This document shows, piece after piece, positions 55,987-63,775 of a DNA stretch of 64,000 nt. The translations under genes and the position numbers were made by a program. Each line of letters begins with the position of its first letter. The first letter of the stretch is position 1. Below the pieces are notes generated by a model that saw nothing but the letters and a program-made list of their open reading frames with translations, was not told the DNA's origin and did not search any database. Source of the DNA: Adhaeribacter radiodurans (GTDB lineage Bacteria > Bacteroidota > Bacteroidia > Cytophagales > Hymenobacteraceae); contig NZ_CP055153.1 of the NCBI RefSeq assembly GCF_014075995.1, positions 2,480,001 to 2,544,000 on the forward strand. Reading direction: 5' to 3'.

Positions 55987-56865
55987 TTAGTTTATGTTCG
56001 CTTCAAAGCGCTTAAACTTCCAGACATTGAAATTACGCTCAATATTGGATTCGTATTTTTTATATTCTTCCTGGTCCTTTTTGCCTAATTTTATAGCTTT
56101 TTTGCACAAGTCTACGGCTCCTTCATATTCGTCTTTTTGAGCCAGCAACTGCGCCTTAATCCAATTGTTATAAAAGTTATCGTTAATGGATAACGATTTA
56201 TCAATCCATTTTAAAGCTAATTCGTGCAGCGTGTTTTTTGAAATTAAATAATTGGTTGCTTGCGCGTAAATTTGCCAATCGTCTGGTTTAGCTTTGGTTA
56301 GATCTTCCTGCAACATGGCCAATACTTTGGCATCGGTGTCCACTTCTATTTTTACCGAAACTTTTTTCCGCTCCCAGAAAAAACTCAGAGTACCGGTATT
56401 TTGCAGTACATCAGAAAATACAAATTGAAATGTTTCTTGGGTAGGAACTTCTTTTACTTGCGCCGGAATTCTTAAAATATCATCTTTAGGATCGTATCCT
56501 TCGGCGCCCCATAAGCTGGTATTTTTGTTTAAGATAAACAAACAAGAATCAGCACTTTCAGGTAAGGAATATAAGCTGTACGTTCCGGCCGCCACATTCT
56601 CTCCGTTTAACTTAACGGCATCCGAAAAAGTTATAAGAGTAGCCTCGTTGGCTCCGGTGCGCCATACTTCGTTATACGGCACCAATTTTCCCCAAACTTC
56701 TCGCCCTTTTACTCCGGGAGTATGGTATTTTAAGGTTATTTCTGTTAAACCTATGGTTTGCATTACCATAGCAGCCGGGCTAGGTTGGGGTAAGCGCAAT
56801 TGCGCCTGAACAAATTGCGGGACCAAAAAGAAAGTGAAACAAGCAAAAGCTAAAATAGCACGCAT
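55987..56865 (-). CDS. DUF2911 domain exported protein
   Basis: A 292-residue protein with a signal peptide (about 1-21, ending FVQAQ), a DUF2911 domain (about 30-180, with the GREVWGKLVPYNEVWRTGANEATLITFS signature and the GTYSLYSLP segment) and C-terminal helices that look TPR-like (KWIDKSLSINDNFYNNWIKAQLL...). It is probably periplasmic; the function of the family is unknown. The ATG at 56865 is 4 nt from a TAnnTTTG box. Confidence 0.88.
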   Translation of the reverse strand: MRAILAFACFTFFLVPQFVQAQLRLPQPSPAAMVMQTIGLTEITLKYHTPGVKGREVWGKLVPYNEVWRTGANEATLITFSDAVKLNGENVAAGTYSLYSLPESADSCLFILNKNTSLWGAEGYDPKDDILRIPAQVKEVPTQETFQFVFSDVLQNTGTLSFFWERKKVSVKIEVDTDAKVLAMLQEDLTKAKPDDWQIYAQATNYLISKNTLHELALKWIDKSLSINDNFYNNWIKAQLLAQKDEYEGAVDLCKKAIKLGKKDQEEYKKYESNIERNFNVWKFKRFEANIN

Positions 56866-57124: not shown

Positions 57125-57132
57125 TACATTTG
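57125..57132 (+). promoter_or_regulatory. TAnnTTTG -7 box of the his operon
   Basis: TACATTTG, 9 nt before the leader-peptide ATG at 57142. No -33 TTG is seen. A start near 57138 would put the leader ORF almost at the 5' end of the mRNA. The rest of the 483-nt gap back to the DUF2911 gene is AT-rich with no other gene. Confidence 0.5.
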
Positions 57133-57141
57133 CATCATCTT

Positions 57142-57252
57142 ATGATGAAATACAGCAAACAATACAATTTTTTTCCTCTTTCAACGCCTTCTCACGCGTT
57201 TGATTTTGCTGTCCATTTTCACCATTACCATCATTCCTCCCGGGGAGAATAA
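57142..57252 (+). CDS. hisL: Putative histidine leader peptide
   Basis: A 36-codon ORF between the his promoter box and hisG, with ATG at 57142 (a second ATG at 57145) and stop TAA at 57250-57252. It encodes six His residues, five of them within residues 25-31 (HFHHYHH), plus an early His at residue 18 and several Phe and Tyr. Such clustering is the signature of an amino-acid attenuator peptide, and the ORF sits just upstream of the eight-gene his operon. The peptide itself needs no function. Translation is predicted from the ORF and context, not shown. Confidence 0.78.
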   Translation: MMKYSKQYNFFPLSTPSHAFDFAVHFHHYHHSSRGE

Positions 57253-57311
57253 TAGTTTTTACGTTCGGGAAGGAGGAAACTCCTGGTTGTAAGCTGTTTC
57301 ATCAATAGCTT
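57234..57311 (+). promoter_or_regulatory. Candidate attenuator structures of the his leader
   Basis: Three pairings downstream of the His codons are seen. A: 57235-57242 (TCCTCCCG) with 57266-57274 (one bulged A). B: AGGAG (57271-57275) with CTCCT (57280-57284) and a GAAA loop, exclusive of A. C: 57291-57298 with 57304-57311 (8 bp, one G-U), followed by TT. A local CTCC/GGAG hairpin at 57237-57247 lies before TTTTT (57256-57260). Which of them terminates transcription is not clear. Confidence 0.45.
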
Positions 57312-57348: not shown

Positions 57349-58200
57349 ATGATTCGATTAGCCATTCAAAAGTCGGGTAGATTAAGCGAAGATTCCCTTA
57401 ATCTCATTCGGGAATGCGGTATTTCTTTTGTTAATTCTTCTTTAAAACTTAAAACCGAAGCCACCAACTTTCCTCTTGAAATTTTATTTCTGCGCGACGA
57501 TGACATACCCGGTTACGTTGCTGATGGAGTAGCCGACATTGGAATTGTAGGGGAAAACGTTCTTGTGGAAGAAGGTAAACAAGCACTGCAAGTAAAAAAA
57601 TTAGGTTTTTCGCAATGCCGTTTGTCCATTGCGGTTCCTAAAAACGCCGAATTTGATCATATTTCTGGTTTGGAAGGTAAAAACATTGCTACCTCTTACC
57701 CAAATTTACTGCAGTCTTATTTATCCGGCGAAGGTGTGAAAGCTCATATTCATACTATTAGCGGTTCGGTTGAGATTGCGCCAAGTATTGGGTTAGCCGA
57801 TGCTATCTGCGATATTGTTTCTTCGGGGAGTACGTTAATCAGCAACGGGTTACGCGAAGTACAGACTGTTTTTCATTCCGAAGCCGTATTAATTGCACAC
57901 CAGGATTTGACCAATGAGAAACGCGCCATTTTAAATCAACTTTTATTCCGGATTGATGCGGTAAGAAAAGCCCAGAAAGCTAAGTATATTTTACTAAATG
58001 CCCCTAACGAAGCAATACCCCGTATTAAATCTTTATTGCCAGGTATGAAAGCTCCTTCTATTTTACCTTTAGCGGAAGAAGGCTGGAGTTCTGTGCATTC
58101 GGTGGTAAACGAAGATGATTTCTGGGAAATAATCGAAAAGTTACGCGAAGCTGGTGCCCAAGGTATATTAGTAGTGCCAATCGAGAAAATGATTTTGTAA
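57349..58200 (+). CDS. hisG: ATP phosphoribosyltransferase (long form)
   Basis: First enzyme of histidine synthesis, 283 aa. The N-terminal IRLAIQKSGRLSEDSLNLIRECG and the catalytic-domain segments are present. The length and the C-terminal regulatory region (about 210-283, with VNEDDFWEIIEKLREAGAQGILVVPIEKMIL) mark the long, HisZ-independent form that is feedback-inhibited by histidine. The stop overlaps the hisD start by one base (TAATG). Confidence 0.94.
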   Translation: MIRLAIQKSGRLSEDSLNLIRECGISFVNSSLKLKTEATNFPLEILFLRDDDIPGYVADGVADIGIVGENVLVEEGKQALQVKKLGFSQCRLSIAVPKNAEFDHISGLEGKNIATSYPNLLQSYLSGEGVKAHIHTISGSVEIAPSIGLADAICDIVSSGSTLISNGLREVQTVFHSEAVLIAHQDLTNEKRAILNQLLFRIDAVRKAQKAKYILLNAPNEAIPRIKSLLPGMKAPSILPLAEEGWSSVHSVVNEDDFWEIIEKLREAGAQGILVVPIEKMIL

Positions 58201-59492
58201 TGTTAAAGCAAGTATTGTATCCTGATCGGGAAAGCTGGCCAGATTTAATAAAACGCCCCGTTCAGGAATTTGAGAAAATTGAAGAACAGATAAAAGTAAT
58301 CTTCGATCAGGTACGTAATAACGGTGATAAAGCCTTAATGGAACTTACCGCCCGATTTGATAAGGTAAGTTTAACCGGCTTGTTAGTATCGCCTGAAGAA
58401 ATAGCTACTGCCGCCGAACAAATTTCCCCGGAATTACAAACAGCTATTCAGCAGGCTTATAAAAATATAACTGTTTTCCACGAGACCCAACGAGAAGCTA
58501 GTCGCCCCGTCGAAACAATGCCAGGCGTACGTTGCTGGCGTAAAAGCGTAGCTATTGAAAAAGTAGGCCTATACATACCGGGTGGTACTGCTCCTTTGTT
58601 TTCTACCTTGTTAATGTTAGGAATTCCGGCTAAACTCGCCGGCTGTCGGGAAATTGTACTGTGCACACCACCCGGGAAAGATGGTTCTGTTCATCCAGCC
58701 ATATTATTTACAGCTTCGTTATTAGGTATTTCTACTATTTGTAAGGTTGGAGGGAGTCAGGCGATAGCAGCCCTTACTTTCGGCACCGAATCAATACCAG
58801 CCGTTTCAAAAATTTTCGGACCAGGTAACCAATACGTAACAGTGGCCAAGCAGATGGCCGGAAAGTACGGAGTAGCTATTGATATGCCGGCCGGCCCCTC
58901 AGAAGTATTAGTAATAGCCGATGAAACAGCCGATCCTAGCTTTGTAGCGGCCGATTTGCTTTCGCAAGCGGAGCACGGTACCGATTCGCAGGTGGTACTT
59001 GTTACGAACTCAGAACAACTGCTTCCTTTAGTTGAACAAGCTTTAGAAGAGCAATTAAAAAATCTATCTCGTCAGAATATAGCGGCAGAAACCTTAACGA
59101 ATAGTTTAGGAATTTTGCTGAAAGATTCAGAAGAAATGCTTGCCTTTTCAAACCTCTATGCGCCCGAACACTTAATTATTATTGCTCAGGAATTGGAACA
59201 CCTGGCCACAGGGGTAACCAATGCAGGTTCGGTATTTTTAGGTGCCTATAGTCCTGAATCAGTGGGAGATTATGCTTCGGGTACTAATCATACTTTGCCT
59301 ACTAACGGCTATGCTCGGGCTTATAGTGGAGTTTCTTTAGATTCTTTTGTTAAAAAAATTACCTTTCAGCACCTTAGTCCGCAAGGCTTGCAATCTATTG
59401 GTCCAATAGTAGAAATAATGGCCGATGCCGAAGGATTGGATGCTCACCGGCAGGCAGTAAGTATTCGCTTAAAAAGTTTATCAAATGTTTAA
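58200..59492 (+). CDS. hisD: Histidinol dehydrogenase
   Basis: A 430-residue zinc enzyme that makes the last two oxidations to histidine. Seen: KVGLYIPGGTAPLFSTLLMLGIPAKLAG, FGPGNQYVTVAKQM, DMPAGPSEVLVIAD, LLSQAEHGTDSQ and ASGTNHTLPTNGYARAYSGVS. All key regions are present. It overlaps hisC by 8 nt. Confidence 0.96.
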   Translation: MLKQVLYPDRESWPDLIKRPVQEFEKIEEQIKVIFDQVRNNGDKALMELTARFDKVSLTGLLVSPEEIATAAEQISPELQTAIQQAYKNITVFHETQREASRPVETMPGVRCWRKSVAIEKVGLYIPGGTAPLFSTLLMLGIPAKLAGCREIVLCTPPGKDGSVHPAILFTASLLGISTICKVGGSQAIAALTFGTESIPAVSKIFGPGNQYVTVAKQMAGKYGVAIDMPAGPSEVLVIADETADPSFVAADLLSQAEHGTDSQVVLVTNSEQLLPLVEQALEEQLKNLSRQNIAAETLTNSLGILLKDSEEMLAFSNLYAPEHLIIIAQELEHLATGVTNAGSVFLGAYSPESVGDYASGTNHTLPTNGYARAYSGVSLDSFVKKITFQHLSPQGLQSIGPIVEIMADAEGLDAHRQAVSIRLKSLSNV

Positions 59493-60534
59493 ACTTACTA
59501 ATTTGGTTCGCCCGAATATCCGGGGTATGAAACCTTATTCTTCCGCTCGCGATGAATTTGAAGGCGAGGCTAGCATCTTTGTCGATGCAAATGAAAATAA
59601 CCTTGGTAGCATGGCGGCCAACCAGCACTACAACCGTTATCCCGATCCGCATCAGAAAGAACTTAAAGCCGCCATTGCCCAAATAAAAGGAGTGAAGCCA
59701 GAACAAATTTTTCTGGGCAACGGCTCCGATGAAGCCATTGATCTCCTAATTCGATTGGTTTGTCAACCTGGTCACGATCAAATTCTAGCTTTTAGCCCCA
59801 CATACGGCATGTACGAAGTATCTGCTAATCTGAACGATGTAGAGTTAAAGCTGGTAAGATTAGACGAGAATTTTCAACTTCAATTAAATAAGCTGCAAGG
59901 GCAAATTCATTCTGAAATTAAAATTATATTTATCTGCACTCCTAATAACCCAAGTGGCAATTTAATTAACCGGAGCAGTATCGAGTACATTTTACAATCT
60001 TTTTCGGGATTAGTAGTAATTGATGAAGCGTACATTGATTTCTCTTCCGAAGATAGCTGGCTTACGCAACTAAGTACGTATCCTAATTTGGTAGTATTGC
60101 AGACTTTTTCTAAAGCTTGGGGTATGGCCGCGTTAAGATTAGGAATGGCATTCGCTTCGGAAGAAGTAATTTCCTTTTTAAACAAGATCAAGCCACCTTA
60201 CAACATTAACGAAGCTACTCAACAAATTGCTTTAGAAGCTTTACAAAACTCCGCTCGTTTACCCGAGATGGTAAAAGAAATAAAAGAAAGTCGGGAAATA
60301 CTTGTTAAAGCCTTAAAGCATTTACCAGTAGTCAAAAAAGTTTATCCTTCGGATGCTAATTTTATTTTGGTAGAAGTAACGGATGCCAATGCTGTATATG
60401 CATACCTCTTAAATAATGGAATTGTGGTTAGAAACCGCACTACGCAACCTGGCTGCTTTAATTGTTTAAGAATATCTGTTGGTACTAAATCAGAAAACGG
60501 AAAGCTGGTTACGTGTTTGAAAAACTATATTTAG
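59485..60534 (+). CDS. hisC: Histidinol-phosphate aminotransferase
   Basis: A PLP aminotransferase of 349 aa that transaminates imidazole-acetol phosphate. Seen: FLGNGSDEAIDLLIRLVC, TPNNPSGNLI, VIDEAYIDFS and QTFSKAWGMAALRLG with Schiff-base Lys210. It overlaps hisD by 8 nt. A 91-nt gap without clear signals separates it from hisB. Confidence 0.95.
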   Translation: MFKLTNLVRPNIRGMKPYSSARDEFEGEASIFVDANENNLGSMAANQHYNRYPDPHQKELKAAIAQIKGVKPEQIFLGNGSDEAIDLLIRLVCQPGHDQILAFSPTYGMYEVSANLNDVELKLVRLDENFQLQLNKLQGQIHSEIKIIFICTPNNPSGNLINRSSIEYILQSFSGLVVIDEAYIDFSSEDSWLTQLSTYPNLVVLQTFSKAWGMAALRLGMAFASEEVISFLNKIKPPYNINEATQQIALEALQNSARLPEMVKEIKESREILVKALKHLPVVKKVYPSDANFILVEVTDANAVYAYLLNNGIVVRNRTTQPGCFNCLRISVGTKSENGKLVTCLKNYI

Positions 60535-60625
60535 GAGATTGTAGCTTTAGTTTATAGTATTGCATATAGTATATTGAATATGAGTGAATTAAATTTTTAA
60601 TAAATATTCTATTAGAAAATTTTTA

Positions 60626-61720
60626 ATGAAAAAAGTTTTATTTATTGACCGGGATGGAACCATACTGGTGGAGCCAAAAACCGACTATCAGGTAGACTCC
60701 TTCGATAAATTTTCCTTCTTACCAGGTGTAATCCGAAATTTATATAAGATTAGTTCTGAACTGGATTATGAATTTGTGATGGTTACGAACCAGGACGGAT
60801 TAGGTACTTCTTCTTATCCGGAAAATACTTTTTGGCCTTTCCAGAACAAAATGTTGGAAATTCTGGCCGGTGAAGGAATAACTTTTTCAGACATTTTAAT
60901 TGATAGAAGTTTTGAACACGAAAATTTACCTACCCGCAAGCCTGGCATTGGAATGCTGCAAAAGTATTTATCAGGAAATTACGATTTAGTAAATTCCTAT
61001 GTGATTGGCGATAGAGTTACCGATATAAAATTAGCTGATAACCTGGGATGTAAAGCTATTTATCTCAACGAAAGCTATAATGCTACAATTGCTTTTTCTA
61101 CTAACAGTTGGGATGAAATTTACAACTATCTTCGTTTGCCTGCTCGTAAAGCAAGTATCATCCGCAATACCAACGAAACCAAAATTAAAGTTAATTTAAA
61201 CTTGGATGGTACCGGAGAGATGCACATCCATACCGGATTAGGTTTTTTCGATCACATGTTAGAGCAATTGAGTAAACATTCAGGTGCAGATATGAAGATT
61301 CAGGTAGAAGGAGATTTACACATTGATGAGCATCACACCATCGAAGATACAGCTATTGCCATTGGCGAAGCTTTTGCCCAAGCCTTAGGTGATAAAAGAG
61401 GTATTAGCCGCTACGGGTATTTATTACCCATGGACGATGTATTGGCCCAGGTAGCGTTAGACTTTTCCGGTAGACCTTGGTTGGTTTGGGAAGCAGATTT
61501 TAAACGTGAAAAAGTAGGCGATATGCCAACAGAAATGTTTTTCCACTTCTTTAAATCGTTCTCGGATGCTGCTAAATGTAATTTAAATGTGAAAGCCGAA
61601 GGTGCCAACGAACACCACAAAATTGAAGCAATTTTTAAAGCAGTAGCTAAGTCTATTAAAATGGCAGTGGCGCGTGACGTAAACAAAATGGAGATTCCCA
61701 GTACCAAAGGTATTTTATAA
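60626..61720 (+). CDS. hisB: Bifunctional histidinol-phosphatase / imidazoleglycerol-phosphate dehydratase
   Basis: A 364-residue fusion. Residues 1-165 are a HAD phosphatase ([10 protein letters not shown] with Asp8 and Asp10, [22 protein letters not shown]) and residues 175-364 are the dehydratase ([51 protein letters not shown]). The order phosphatase-dehydratase matches the E. coli-type HisB. Both active sites look intact. The stop overlaps hisH by one base. Confidence 0.95.
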
Positions 61721-62301
61721 TGAGTATTGTTATTATTGATTACAAAGGAGGTAATGTACAATCAGTAAAGTTTGCGCTGGAAAGATTAGGAGCAGAAGCC
61801 ACTTTGAGCGCTGATCCGGAAGTGATCAGAAGCGCCGATAAAATTATATTTCCGGGCGAAGGGGAGGCTAGTTCTGCTATGGAGGAGCTAAGAGCCCGCG
61901 GTTTAGATAAAGTAATTCCTGAATTAACGCAACCCTTTCTAGGCATTTGTTTAGGTATCCAGCTTTTATGCCGGCACTCCCAAGAAAATGACACGCAAAT
62001 GCTTGATATTATTCCAGTTGATGTGGTTCGGTTTAATCATAGCTTAAAGGTTCCACATATGGGTTGGAATAACTTATTTGATTTAAAAGGCGATTTGTTT
62101 AATGGCGTAAATGAGCAGGATTACGTTTATTTTGTACATAGCTATTATTTACCCGTTTGTGAATACACCATTGCCACAGGAGCTTACCCAGAACCTTTTA
62201 GTGCGGCTGTACAATACAAAAATTTTTACGCCATGCAGTTCCATACCGAAAAAAGTGGCCCTACCGGTACACGAATTATAGAGAACTTCCTCGCTTTATG
62301 A
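61720..62301 (+). CDS. hisH: Imidazole glycerol phosphate synthase, glutaminase subunit
   Basis: A class I glutaminase of 193 aa that feeds ammonia to HisF. The catalytic triad is visible: Cys77 in GICLGIQLLC, and His175 and Glu177 in QFHTEKSG. It overlaps hisA by 4 nt. Confidence 0.95.
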   Translation: MSIVIIDYKGGNVQSVKFALERLGAEATLSADPEVIRSADKIIFPGEGEASSAMEELRARGLDKVIPELTQPFLGICLGIQLLCRHSQENDTQMLDIIPVDVVRFNHSLKVPHMGWNNLFDLKGDLFNGVNEQDYVYFVHSYYLPVCEYTIATGAYPEPFSAAVQYKNFYAMQFHTEKSGPTGTRIIENFLAL

Positions 62302-63020
62302 TGCAGATTATTCCCGCGATTGATATTATTGGTGGCCAGTGCGTCCGCCTAACTGAAGGTGATTTTACCCAGCAAAAAACGTATGCCAGCAATCCGGTAG
62401 AAGTTGCTAAACAATTTGTTGATGCCGGTTTACAACGCTTGCATTTAGTAGATTTAGACGGAGCCCGGGCACGTAAACCTCTAAATTTAGCTGTATTAGA
62501 AGCCATTGCTACTCAAACAAATTTAATTATTGATTTTGGCGGCGGTATTCAGTCAGAAGAATCTATTCAGCAAGCGTTTAATGCCGGAGCACAGCAAATT
62601 ACTGCTGGTAGTATTGCCGTACGCGAGGTAAGCTTAGTGCAGCATTGGTTAGAAAAATTCGGGGCTAATAAAATAATTATTGGAGCCGATTTTCGTGATA
62701 ACTTTATTTCTATAAATGCCTGGGCTGAGCAATCTACGGTTTCGCTTACTAATTTTATTCAACAGTATTTAGAATACGGGGCTCAGACCTTTATTTGTAC
62801 CGATGTCAGTAAAGACGGTAAATTGCAGGGACCGGCTACTCAAACTTACACCGAGCTGGTTCAAAGTTTTCCGAAAGCTGGGTTTATTGCTAGCGGTGGT
62901 GTAACAACCATTAACGATTTAGAAGAATTAAAAGCTATCGGAATGGAAGGCGTAATTATTGGAAAAGCCATTTACGAAGGAACCATTACCCTGGCAGATT
63001 TAAATAAATTTGTATGTTAA
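62298..63020 (+). CDS. hisA: ProFAR isomerase (HisA)
   Basis: A (beta-alpha)8-barrel isomerase of 240 aa. Seen: [20 protein letters not shown] (catalytic Asp near residue 9), [28 protein letters not shown] and [15 protein letters not shown]. An ATG 3 nt downstream (62301) is an equally good start. It overlaps hisF by 7 nt. Confidence 0.94.
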
Positions 63021-63775
63021 CAAAACGTATTATTCCTTGTCTGGATATAAAAAACGGACGAACCGTGAAAGGGGTAATGTTCGAAAACATCCGGGATGCA
63101 GGTGATCCGGTGGCTTTGGCCGCCGAGTACGCCCGGCAAGGAGCGGATGAACTGGTGTTTTTAGATATTACCGCCACTAACGAAGAGCGTAAAACCTTTG
63201 CTCAACTCGTCCGGGAAATTGCGCGCCATATTGATATTCCGTTTACGGTAGGAGGCGGTATTGGTGCTATCCGCGACGTGGAAGTACTTCTGCACGAAGG
63301 AGCCGATAAAGTATCTATTAACTCTGCCGCTATAAAAGAACCGCAACTGGTATACGATCTGGCTAAACGTTTCGGTAGCCAATGTATAACGGTTGCCATT
63401 GATACCAAATTAACTGCTACGGGTTGGAAAGTATTTAGCCGCGCCGGAACCTTGGAAACGGAACATGCTACATTAGATTGGGCAAAACAAATTACGGATT
63501 TAGGTGCCGGCGAAATTTTGCTCACCTCTATGAGCCACGATGGTACCAAAAACGGATTTGCTTTGGATATTACCGGTGCTGTTTCACAGGGAGTTTCTAT
63601 TCCGGTTATTGCTTCGGGAGGAGCCGGCCAAATGGAACACTTTGCGGATGTATTTAATAAAGCACAGGCAGATGCTGCTTTGGCTGCCAGTATTTTTCAC
63701 TTCGGCGAGATTCCCATTCCTGCCCTTAAAAAATATTTAGTTAACCAGGATTTACCTATTCGTTTATGTTATTAG
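63014..63775 (+). CDS. hisF: Imidazole glycerol phosphate synthase, cyclase subunit
   Basis: A (beta-alpha)8-barrel of 253 aa that pairs with HisH. Seen: [19 protein letters not shown] (catalytic Asp11), [40 protein letters not shown] (second Asp) and VIASGGAG. It overlaps hisI by 10 nt. Confidence 0.96.

Follow-up and report, generated by a model that had tools for sequence, protein, structure and literature searches.

A conserved histidine-rich leader peptide ahead of hisG points to attenuation control of the his genes in Adhaeribacter radiodurans and related Bacteroidota

A short open reading frame (ORF) rich in histidine codons, located directly ahead of the his gene cluster of Adhaeribacter radiodurans (Cytophagales, Hymenobacteraceae), is very probably a histidine-starvation sensor that switches on the his genes. 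It lies in a stretch of 64,000 nucleotides (positions 2,480,001 to 2,544,000 of contig NZ_CP055153.1; hereafter the window), to which all coordinates refer unless stated otherwise. That the leader peptide senses histidine and controls hisG by some route appears to us close to certain, and control by transcription attenuation of some form is strongly favored, while the complete chain, namely a histidine attenuator with an intrinsic terminator hairpin before hisG, is held with moderate confidence. The leader-peptide attenuation proposed in an earlier sequence-only reading of this DNA is therefore supported, since the His-rich ORF is kept in relatives and the anatomy of an attenuator is found in most loci of the class Bacteroidia that carry the ORF.

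The leader ORF (57142 to 57252, forward strand) was identified by ORF reading and encodes a peptide of 36 amino acids, MMKYSKQYNFFPLSTPSHAFDFAVHFHHYHHSSRGE, which starts with tandem ATG codons at 57142 and 57145 and ends in HFHHYHH followed by SSRGE and the stop codon. The codons for HFHHYHH (57214 to 57234, forward strand), five of which specify His, are the proposed stall site, as judged from the translation of the ORF and the conservation of His in family-type leaders. An in-frame TTG at 57130 would add four codons to the ORF, but it sits inside the promoter box described below, and an ATG is therefore the likelier start. Five His in seven residues are reached by one of the 1,487 ORFs of 8 to 70 amino acids on both strands of the window, which is the leader ORF itself, and in 400 kb sampled from the same genome two of 9,465 short ORFs reach four His in seven and one reaches five.

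The gap between the end of the leader stop (57252) and the hisG ATG (57349) is 96 nt. The earlier reading had placed the 36-codon ORF 9 nt past a TAnnTTTG box, with five His in seven residues near its stop and about 100 nt of spacing to hisG, and our coordinates agree with it in each of these respects. The first gene of the cluster, hisG (57349 to 58200, forward strand; NCBIfam TIGR00070 and TIGR03455), is followed in the same direction by hisD, hisC, the bifunctional hisB, hisH, hisA and hisF (58200 to 63775, forward strand; NCBIfam), so that the order after the leader is hisGDCBHAF. Among the matches in the named collection, the closest hisG is that of Adhaeribacter aerolatus with 88% identity. 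An ORF of 292 amino acids that diverges from the his leader (55987 to 56865, reverse strand) had no NCBIfam match at an E value of 0.001. The ORF and its gene context can be read directly from the DNA, and the locus agrees with his leader-peptide attenuators in that a short ORF with clustered His codons precedes hisG, its promoter being a match to a consensus only.

The earlier reading had also called for a comparison of related hisG upstream regions, and the His cluster was indeed kept upstream of hisG in most of the sampled relatives while the other residues drifted. An ORF with at least four His in eight residues, at most 400 nt upstream of hisG, was found at 67 of 88 class loci (the window, locus L025, included), a set that contains near-duplicates such as L001 and L002 and from which a second, partial match in genome G013 was excluded. 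Applied to the reverse strand, the same search returned 0 of 88, and dinucleotide shuffles gave 2 of 440; the next amino acid by this criterion was Leu, with 20 of 88 loci, about as in shuffles (99 of 440). Among the 21 class loci below the threshold, 13 have three His. While hisG is present in 89 class genomes, the class counts use 88 loci because genome G166 was left out; its locus (L397) carries MNGTHHHHHLICSENPE, which brings the ORF to 68 of 89. At the named loci, 71 of 80 reach four His in eight without the start-codon rule, two of them (L082 and L084) looking accidental by position, and at the family loci L111 to L140, which come partly from the same genomes as the named loci, the ORF was found in 30 of 30 with a start codon required.

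The short ORF usually ends in HHxHHSS and a stop codon, as seen in Pontibacter, Rufibacter, Algoriphagus, Belliella and many Hymenobacter. In 95 distinct leaders of this family type, the two His that precede SS are conserved in 95 and 94 cases and the others in 89, 76 and 64, whereas residues 8 to 20 positions upstream have pairwise identities of 0.11 to 0.22. Both CAT and CAC are used at all conserved His positions except the last, and the first His of HHSS is encoded by CAT in 70 leaders and by CAC in 25. The conservation of the His codons is thus a direct observation. In a Hymenobacter subgroup (L067, L069, L072, L074, L075, L180 and L219), the His run is followed by LW-x-AGL-x-AG in place of SS and the stop, and the usual hairpin at the stop codon, described below, is therefore gone. 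Fibrella, Fibrivirga and three unclassified Cytophagales (L080, L082, L084, L092 and L101) have no clear His leader; in these five loci a TANNTTTG box starts 43 to 52 nt before the hisG start, and the attenuator has apparently been lost. In the phylum outside the class, the ORF was found at 20 of 31 located hisG loci, an uneven sample in which 18 loci belong to the highest-scoring hisG matches and the others were picked for family spread, and in which the positives at L363, L373 and L384 may be due to chance; seven of the 38 non-class stretches gave no hisG start and were dropped.

The promoter box of the window, TACATTTG (57125 to 57132, forward strand), is a consensus match to the Bacteroidota −7 element TAnnTTTG and ends 9 nt ahead of the first leader ATG. 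In Flavobacterium johnsoniae, the G of the −7 element is reported at position −5 (PMC6847099), and by this rule transcription is predicted to start near 57137, giving a predicted 5′ UTR of about 5 nt. A scan for E. coli-type promoters yielded a number of sites not above that in shuffles. Across the class, 53 of the 67 leaders have an exact TANNTTTG no more than 60 nt from a leader ATG, versus 17% of random positions in the same regions, and 26 of the 67 have one within 15 nt, versus 5% in the control; these counts took the box nearest to any in-frame ATG and thus slightly favor hits. Judged from box positions, 26 of the 53 boxed leaders would have a 5′ UTR of at most 10 nt. In F. johnsoniae, 87% of the predicted transcripts are reported to have leaders of more than 10 nt (PMC6847099), and about 3.7% of the 5′ UTRs in B. 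thetaiotaomicron are reported to be shorter than 10 nt (PMC7366714). In the 80 nt ahead of the hisG start, an exact TANNTTTG was found at 22 of 133 family and order loci, among them L031, L033, L040, L048, L077, L091, L128, L202, L208 and L209, and none was found there in the window; this suggests that some of these loci may possess an additional promoter past the leader.

An intrinsic terminator is present between the leader stop and hisG in 54 of the 67 class leaders, compared with 120 of 1,340 shuffles, and in 34 of the 54 a segment complements the 5′ arm of the terminator so well that no more than 5 of 100 shuffles equal it. This competing segment lies past the first His codons and usually near the leader stop, an arrangement known from classical attenuators paced by the ribosome. 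We folded truncated transcripts that were cut just before the terminator 3′ arm, with the ribosome either on the His codons or at the stop, for 51 loci (the 54 minus L018, L164 and L180, which have implausible terminators and are all still counted among the 54 of 67). The 5′ arm was sequestered on average to 0.80 in the stalled state, 0.21 with the ribosome at the stop and 0.51 with shuffled intervening sequence, and in 28 of the 51 loci at most 5 of 100 shuffles sequestered the arm as well as the stalled form. The fall from 0.80 to 0.21 is partly trivial because less RNA is free when the ribosome is at the stop, and since the value of the E. coli his leader hardly falls in the same measure (0.81 stalled, 0.77 at the stop, 0.45 shuffled), the drop seen in the class is no signature by itself.

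Folding of full transcripts at equilibrium was rejected as proof of a switch. The terminator exceeded 0.5 in both states at 50 of the 54 class loci; only two switched as predicted (L003 and L160), L164 was low in both states and L180 went the wrong way. As the proven E. coli his leader likewise gave 1.00 and 1.00, the equilibrium test does not discriminate, and attenuation would need to depend on the sequence in which the RNA folds as it is transcribed, as is assumed for E. coli. In one group of 12 loci (A4), segment 3 (GGCTTGCC type) pairs both with segment 2 (GGTGAGCC type) and with segment 4 (GGTAAGCC type), and 98.9% of the cells are paired in each of the helices 2:3 and 3:4 versus at most 63% when the helices are slid. 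The covariation score of 3:4 in A4 was above all 500 shuffles, that of 2:3 in A4 was not above shuffles (85 of 500 reach it), and in a second group of 10 loci (A3) two pairs of helix 2:3 were changed on both sides and the score was reached by 3 of 500 shuffles. Two of the three helix counts are therefore above shuffles, in groups that were picked by eye (10 of 11 loci for A3, 12 of 20 for A4), which favors the counted helices, and among loci whose kinship can inflate such counts.

In the window, RNA folding identified two competing pairings of the right geometry. Segment A (TTCCTCCCG; 57234 to 57242, forward strand), the 5′ arm of the proposed antiterminator, touches the end of the last His codon, and segment C′ (CGGGAAGGAGGAA; 57266 to 57278, forward strand) pairs either with A or with a downstream CTCCT; the pairing of A with C′ is also predicted in three close relatives (L199, L200 and L201). 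The distance from the beginning of the cluster's first His codon to the beginning of segment A is 20 nt, which fits the scheme: A would remain accessible while a ribosome occupies the first His codons and would be covered by a ribosome close to the stop. The alternative pairing is the short hairpin AGGAG-GAAA-CTCCT (57271 to 57284, forward strand), the proposed terminator stem, which has 5 bp and a T-poor tail, GGTTGTAAG, while the corresponding tails in relatives are GGTTTTT, GTTTTC and GTTTTG. Folding also gave a second hairpin, AAGCTGTT-TCATC-AATAGCTT followed by TTCACTTT (57291 to 57311, forward strand), as a candidate additional weak terminator; in L200 this hairpin is GCTGTT/AACAGC, followed by TTTTT. 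Two terminator scans found none between the leader and hisG in the window and one terminator-like site inside the leader ORF.

With an edge of 14, the hairpin arm of the window was sequestered to 0.84 in the stalled state, 0.32 at the stop and 0.53 in shuffled sequence, and for the window together with L199 to L201 the values were 0.77–0.98 stalled and 0.27–0.39 at the stop, with shuffled means of 0.53–0.76. Taken singly, the stalled pairing in the three relatives is unexceptional, with 8, 14 and 13 of 100 shuffles as good. In full transcripts the window hairpin reached 0.78 stalled versus 0.90 at the stop, which is hardly a switch, while a clear switch was seen in L201 (0.00 versus 0.77) and L200 (0.10 versus 1.00), and in L199 only at the widest footprint.

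In most relatives of the clade, the leader stop lies inside or beside a hairpin ATTCCTC-n-GAGGAAT, after which come a CATATNGCCC-like motif and another hairpin. In the window and L199 to L201 this layout is remodelled: segment A adjoins the last His codon and pairs with C′, which can alternatively form the xGGAG-loop-CTCCT hairpin. Another subgroup of the genus (L031, L128 and L202) has the sequence of the stop region paired with a distant ATTATTCCTC that is followed by a T run. In an alignment (A1) of 33 of 39 representatives drawn from 97 distinct loci, covariation was found in none of the six pairs of the stop-codon hairpin, which is uninformative because the hairpin is nearly invariant. 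The CATATNGCCC-like motif is conserved about 8–10 nt past the hairpin in these 33 loci and is possibly a pause site for RNA polymerase. We take the copy in the window to be a Cytophagales variant with competing hairpins and a weak terminator, and because of this weakness our view of the termination step draws mainly on the relatives.

The following sequence of events would account for these features. Transcription would start about 5 nt before the leader ATG, so that ribosomes could bind immediately and with no need of a Shine-Dalgarno sequence. Under a shortage of charged tRNA-His, the ribosome would wait on the His codons and segment A would stay free to pair with C′, thereby blocking the terminator hairpin and allowing RNA polymerase to continue into hisGDCBHAF. 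When histidine is plentiful, the ribosome would reach the stop and cover A, the hairpin from C′ would form and transcription would end. For A. radiodurans, we infer the stalling, the coupling of ribosome and polymerase, and termination itself.

Similar leaders for other amino acids were found in part of the loci examined. In the same genome, MKMKRITNAYFFYYYFFSTSQGS lies upstream of pheA and is followed by AAAGCCCCGAAAATTCGGGGC and a T run right before the pheA ATG. This Phe/Tyr leader (L247; G000:C2, near 4498560–4498708) is followed by a GC-rich hairpin, the T run and pheA, and the terminator looks canonical, its hairpin being judged by eye. At least six Phe or Tyr in eight residues are reached at 5 of 17 pheA loci (L245, L247, L250, L255 and L258; L258 belongs to a genome of 0.5 Mb, and its hit may be due to chance), and L246 and L251 have shorter aromatic runs. 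Upstream of trpE, 6 of 21 loci have at least two Trp in eight residues (L260, L265, L272, L273, L274 and L279), and each of these six ORFs is followed by a hairpin with a T run, as judged by eye; the trpE locus of the window genome (L276) has no Trp-rich leader ORF. No convincing Ile/Leu/Val leader was seen at 20 ilvD loci, where L240 and L241 reach 6 and 7 of 8, and none for thrA in 14 stretches, some of which may not reach the gene start.

Could the leader act without an intrinsic terminator? In this clade it might work via polymerase pausing or Rho-dependent termination, with the ribosome shielding or exposing RNA and the conserved hairpin around the leader stop serving as a pause hairpin. 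The succession of ATTCCTC-n-GAGGAAT and the CATATNGCCC-like motif in the 33 aligned loci is in line with this reading, as are the weak or absent U-tracts of several Cytophagales and the negative terminator scans in the window. However, L032, L037, L071, L128 and L202 from the same clade have U-tracts after a hairpin, and A. radiodurans itself has the canonical-looking terminator at pheA. In addition, the stop-codon hairpin is without covariation, partly since it is nearly invariant, and its usual form is lost in the window's own clade. We therefore regard this explanation as rather unlikely, and a histidine attenuator with an intrinsic terminator is preferred.

Purely translational control, in which the leader ribosome would refold the RNA and expose or hide the hisG start while transcription is unaffected, is improbable. 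Its basis is that the stalled fold of the window pairs CTCCTGG with TTCAGGAAG, 17–26 nt before the hisG ATG; this pairing exists in predicted folds only, the distance from leader to hisG is 96 nt, and 54 of the 67 class leaders are followed, ahead of hisG, by terminators with T runs. Hardly credible is a small His-rich protein in its own right, for instance a metal-binding one, or a chance run of His, unrelated to his regulation. One ORF of the 400-kb sample (L328) does have a His-rich C-terminus unrelated to his genes, but the fixed place before hisG at 67 of 88 class loci, the drift of the other residues, the fact that the ORF overlaps paired RNA segments and, at some of the loci examined, equivalent arrangements with Phe/Tyr ahead of pheA and with Trp ahead of trpE argue against it.

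As a tentative and somewhat doubtful extension of the attenuator reading, ribosome-paced attenuation could be an old, phylum-wide control of amino-acid operons that works on nearly leaderless mRNAs without Shine-Dalgarno sequences. The Cytophagales would have rebuilt it around the stop-codon hairpin and the CATATNGCCC-like element, possibly a pause site, which would replace or assist the classical terminator. If so, ribosome and polymerase would be coupled in this phylum, at least over leaders. Since attenuation needs a ribosome close behind RNA polymerase, the layout makes transcription-translation coupling directly testable, and its occurrence at 67 of 88 class loci and 20 of 31 other phylum loci means that this can be done in bacteria whose mRNAs are without Shine-Dalgarno sequences (PMC6847099). 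The leaders also offer a handle on amino-acid regulation in an abundant phylum.

Rfam matched none of the RNA elements described here, either in the window or in 16 relatives. The His_leader model (RF00514) did not match the window at its gathering score, nor did it appear in a permissive search of the locus, and its best match in the 16 relatives was L155 with 33.7 bits versus a gathering score of 49. The T-box model had no match in the window or these relatives, and Thr_leader and others matched the relatives below gathering only. At E values of up to 10, the his locus gave six weak matches, all to eukaryotic or unrelated families, which were discarded.

Little is in print on His leaders of Bacteroidota in the open-access literature that was searched. 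Vitreschak et al. (2004) may include candidates from Bacteroidetes. Strong clues for leader-peptide attenuation upstream of amino-acid operons have been reported in Flavobacterium psychrophilum, and the same source lists a 5′ element of hisG that is conserved in other Flavobacteriaceae and has no Rfam hits (PMC9723704). This element belongs to the same phylum and the same gene as the leader in the window; the available part of that source deals with one species and the Flavobacteriaceae, and gives no peptide or hairpins and no Cytophagales or wider phylum. The suggestion of the sequence-only reading that the leader may be undescribed was therefore too strong: the principle is long established and the phylum already has a reported candidate. 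The novelty lies in scope and architecture, as neither the spread across the class nor the Cytophagales variant seems to have been described in the searchable open-access literature. In B. thetaiotaomicron, long 5′ UTRs contain short ORFs reminiscent of leader peptides (PMC7366714). An account of the his genes in the Bacteroidota superphylum treats attenuation in S. enterica and E. coli, and the word "leader" is absent from its available part (PMC8305728). A summary of earlier work, as far as available, lists histidyl-tRNA-dependent attenuators for gamma-proteobacteria and some Firmicutes and none in Bacteroidetes (PMC4833913). In 2022, his attenuators were named for Proteobacteria, with Firmicutes added: in some Firmicutes, comparative genomics found runs of three to five consecutive His codons ahead of predicted attenuator structures (PMC9413887), leaders that belong to another phylum than ours, in a paper whose main text contains "bacteroid" 0 times.

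A close known counterpart is hisL of E. coli, in which, as in the leader described here, a short ORF with a cluster of His codons is placed after the promoter and ahead of hisG; with most class loci that carry a leader, hisL also shares an intrinsic terminator and a competing segment. The stalled values in truncated transcripts are alike (0.81 in E. coli, a mean of 0.80 in the class), while those at the stop differ (0.77 versus 0.21). The peptide of the window is also longer, with 36 amino acids versus 16 in the E. coli his leader, and the window differs further from hisL in its predicted 5′ UTR of 5 nt and in the first competing arm, which in this clade touches the last His codon.
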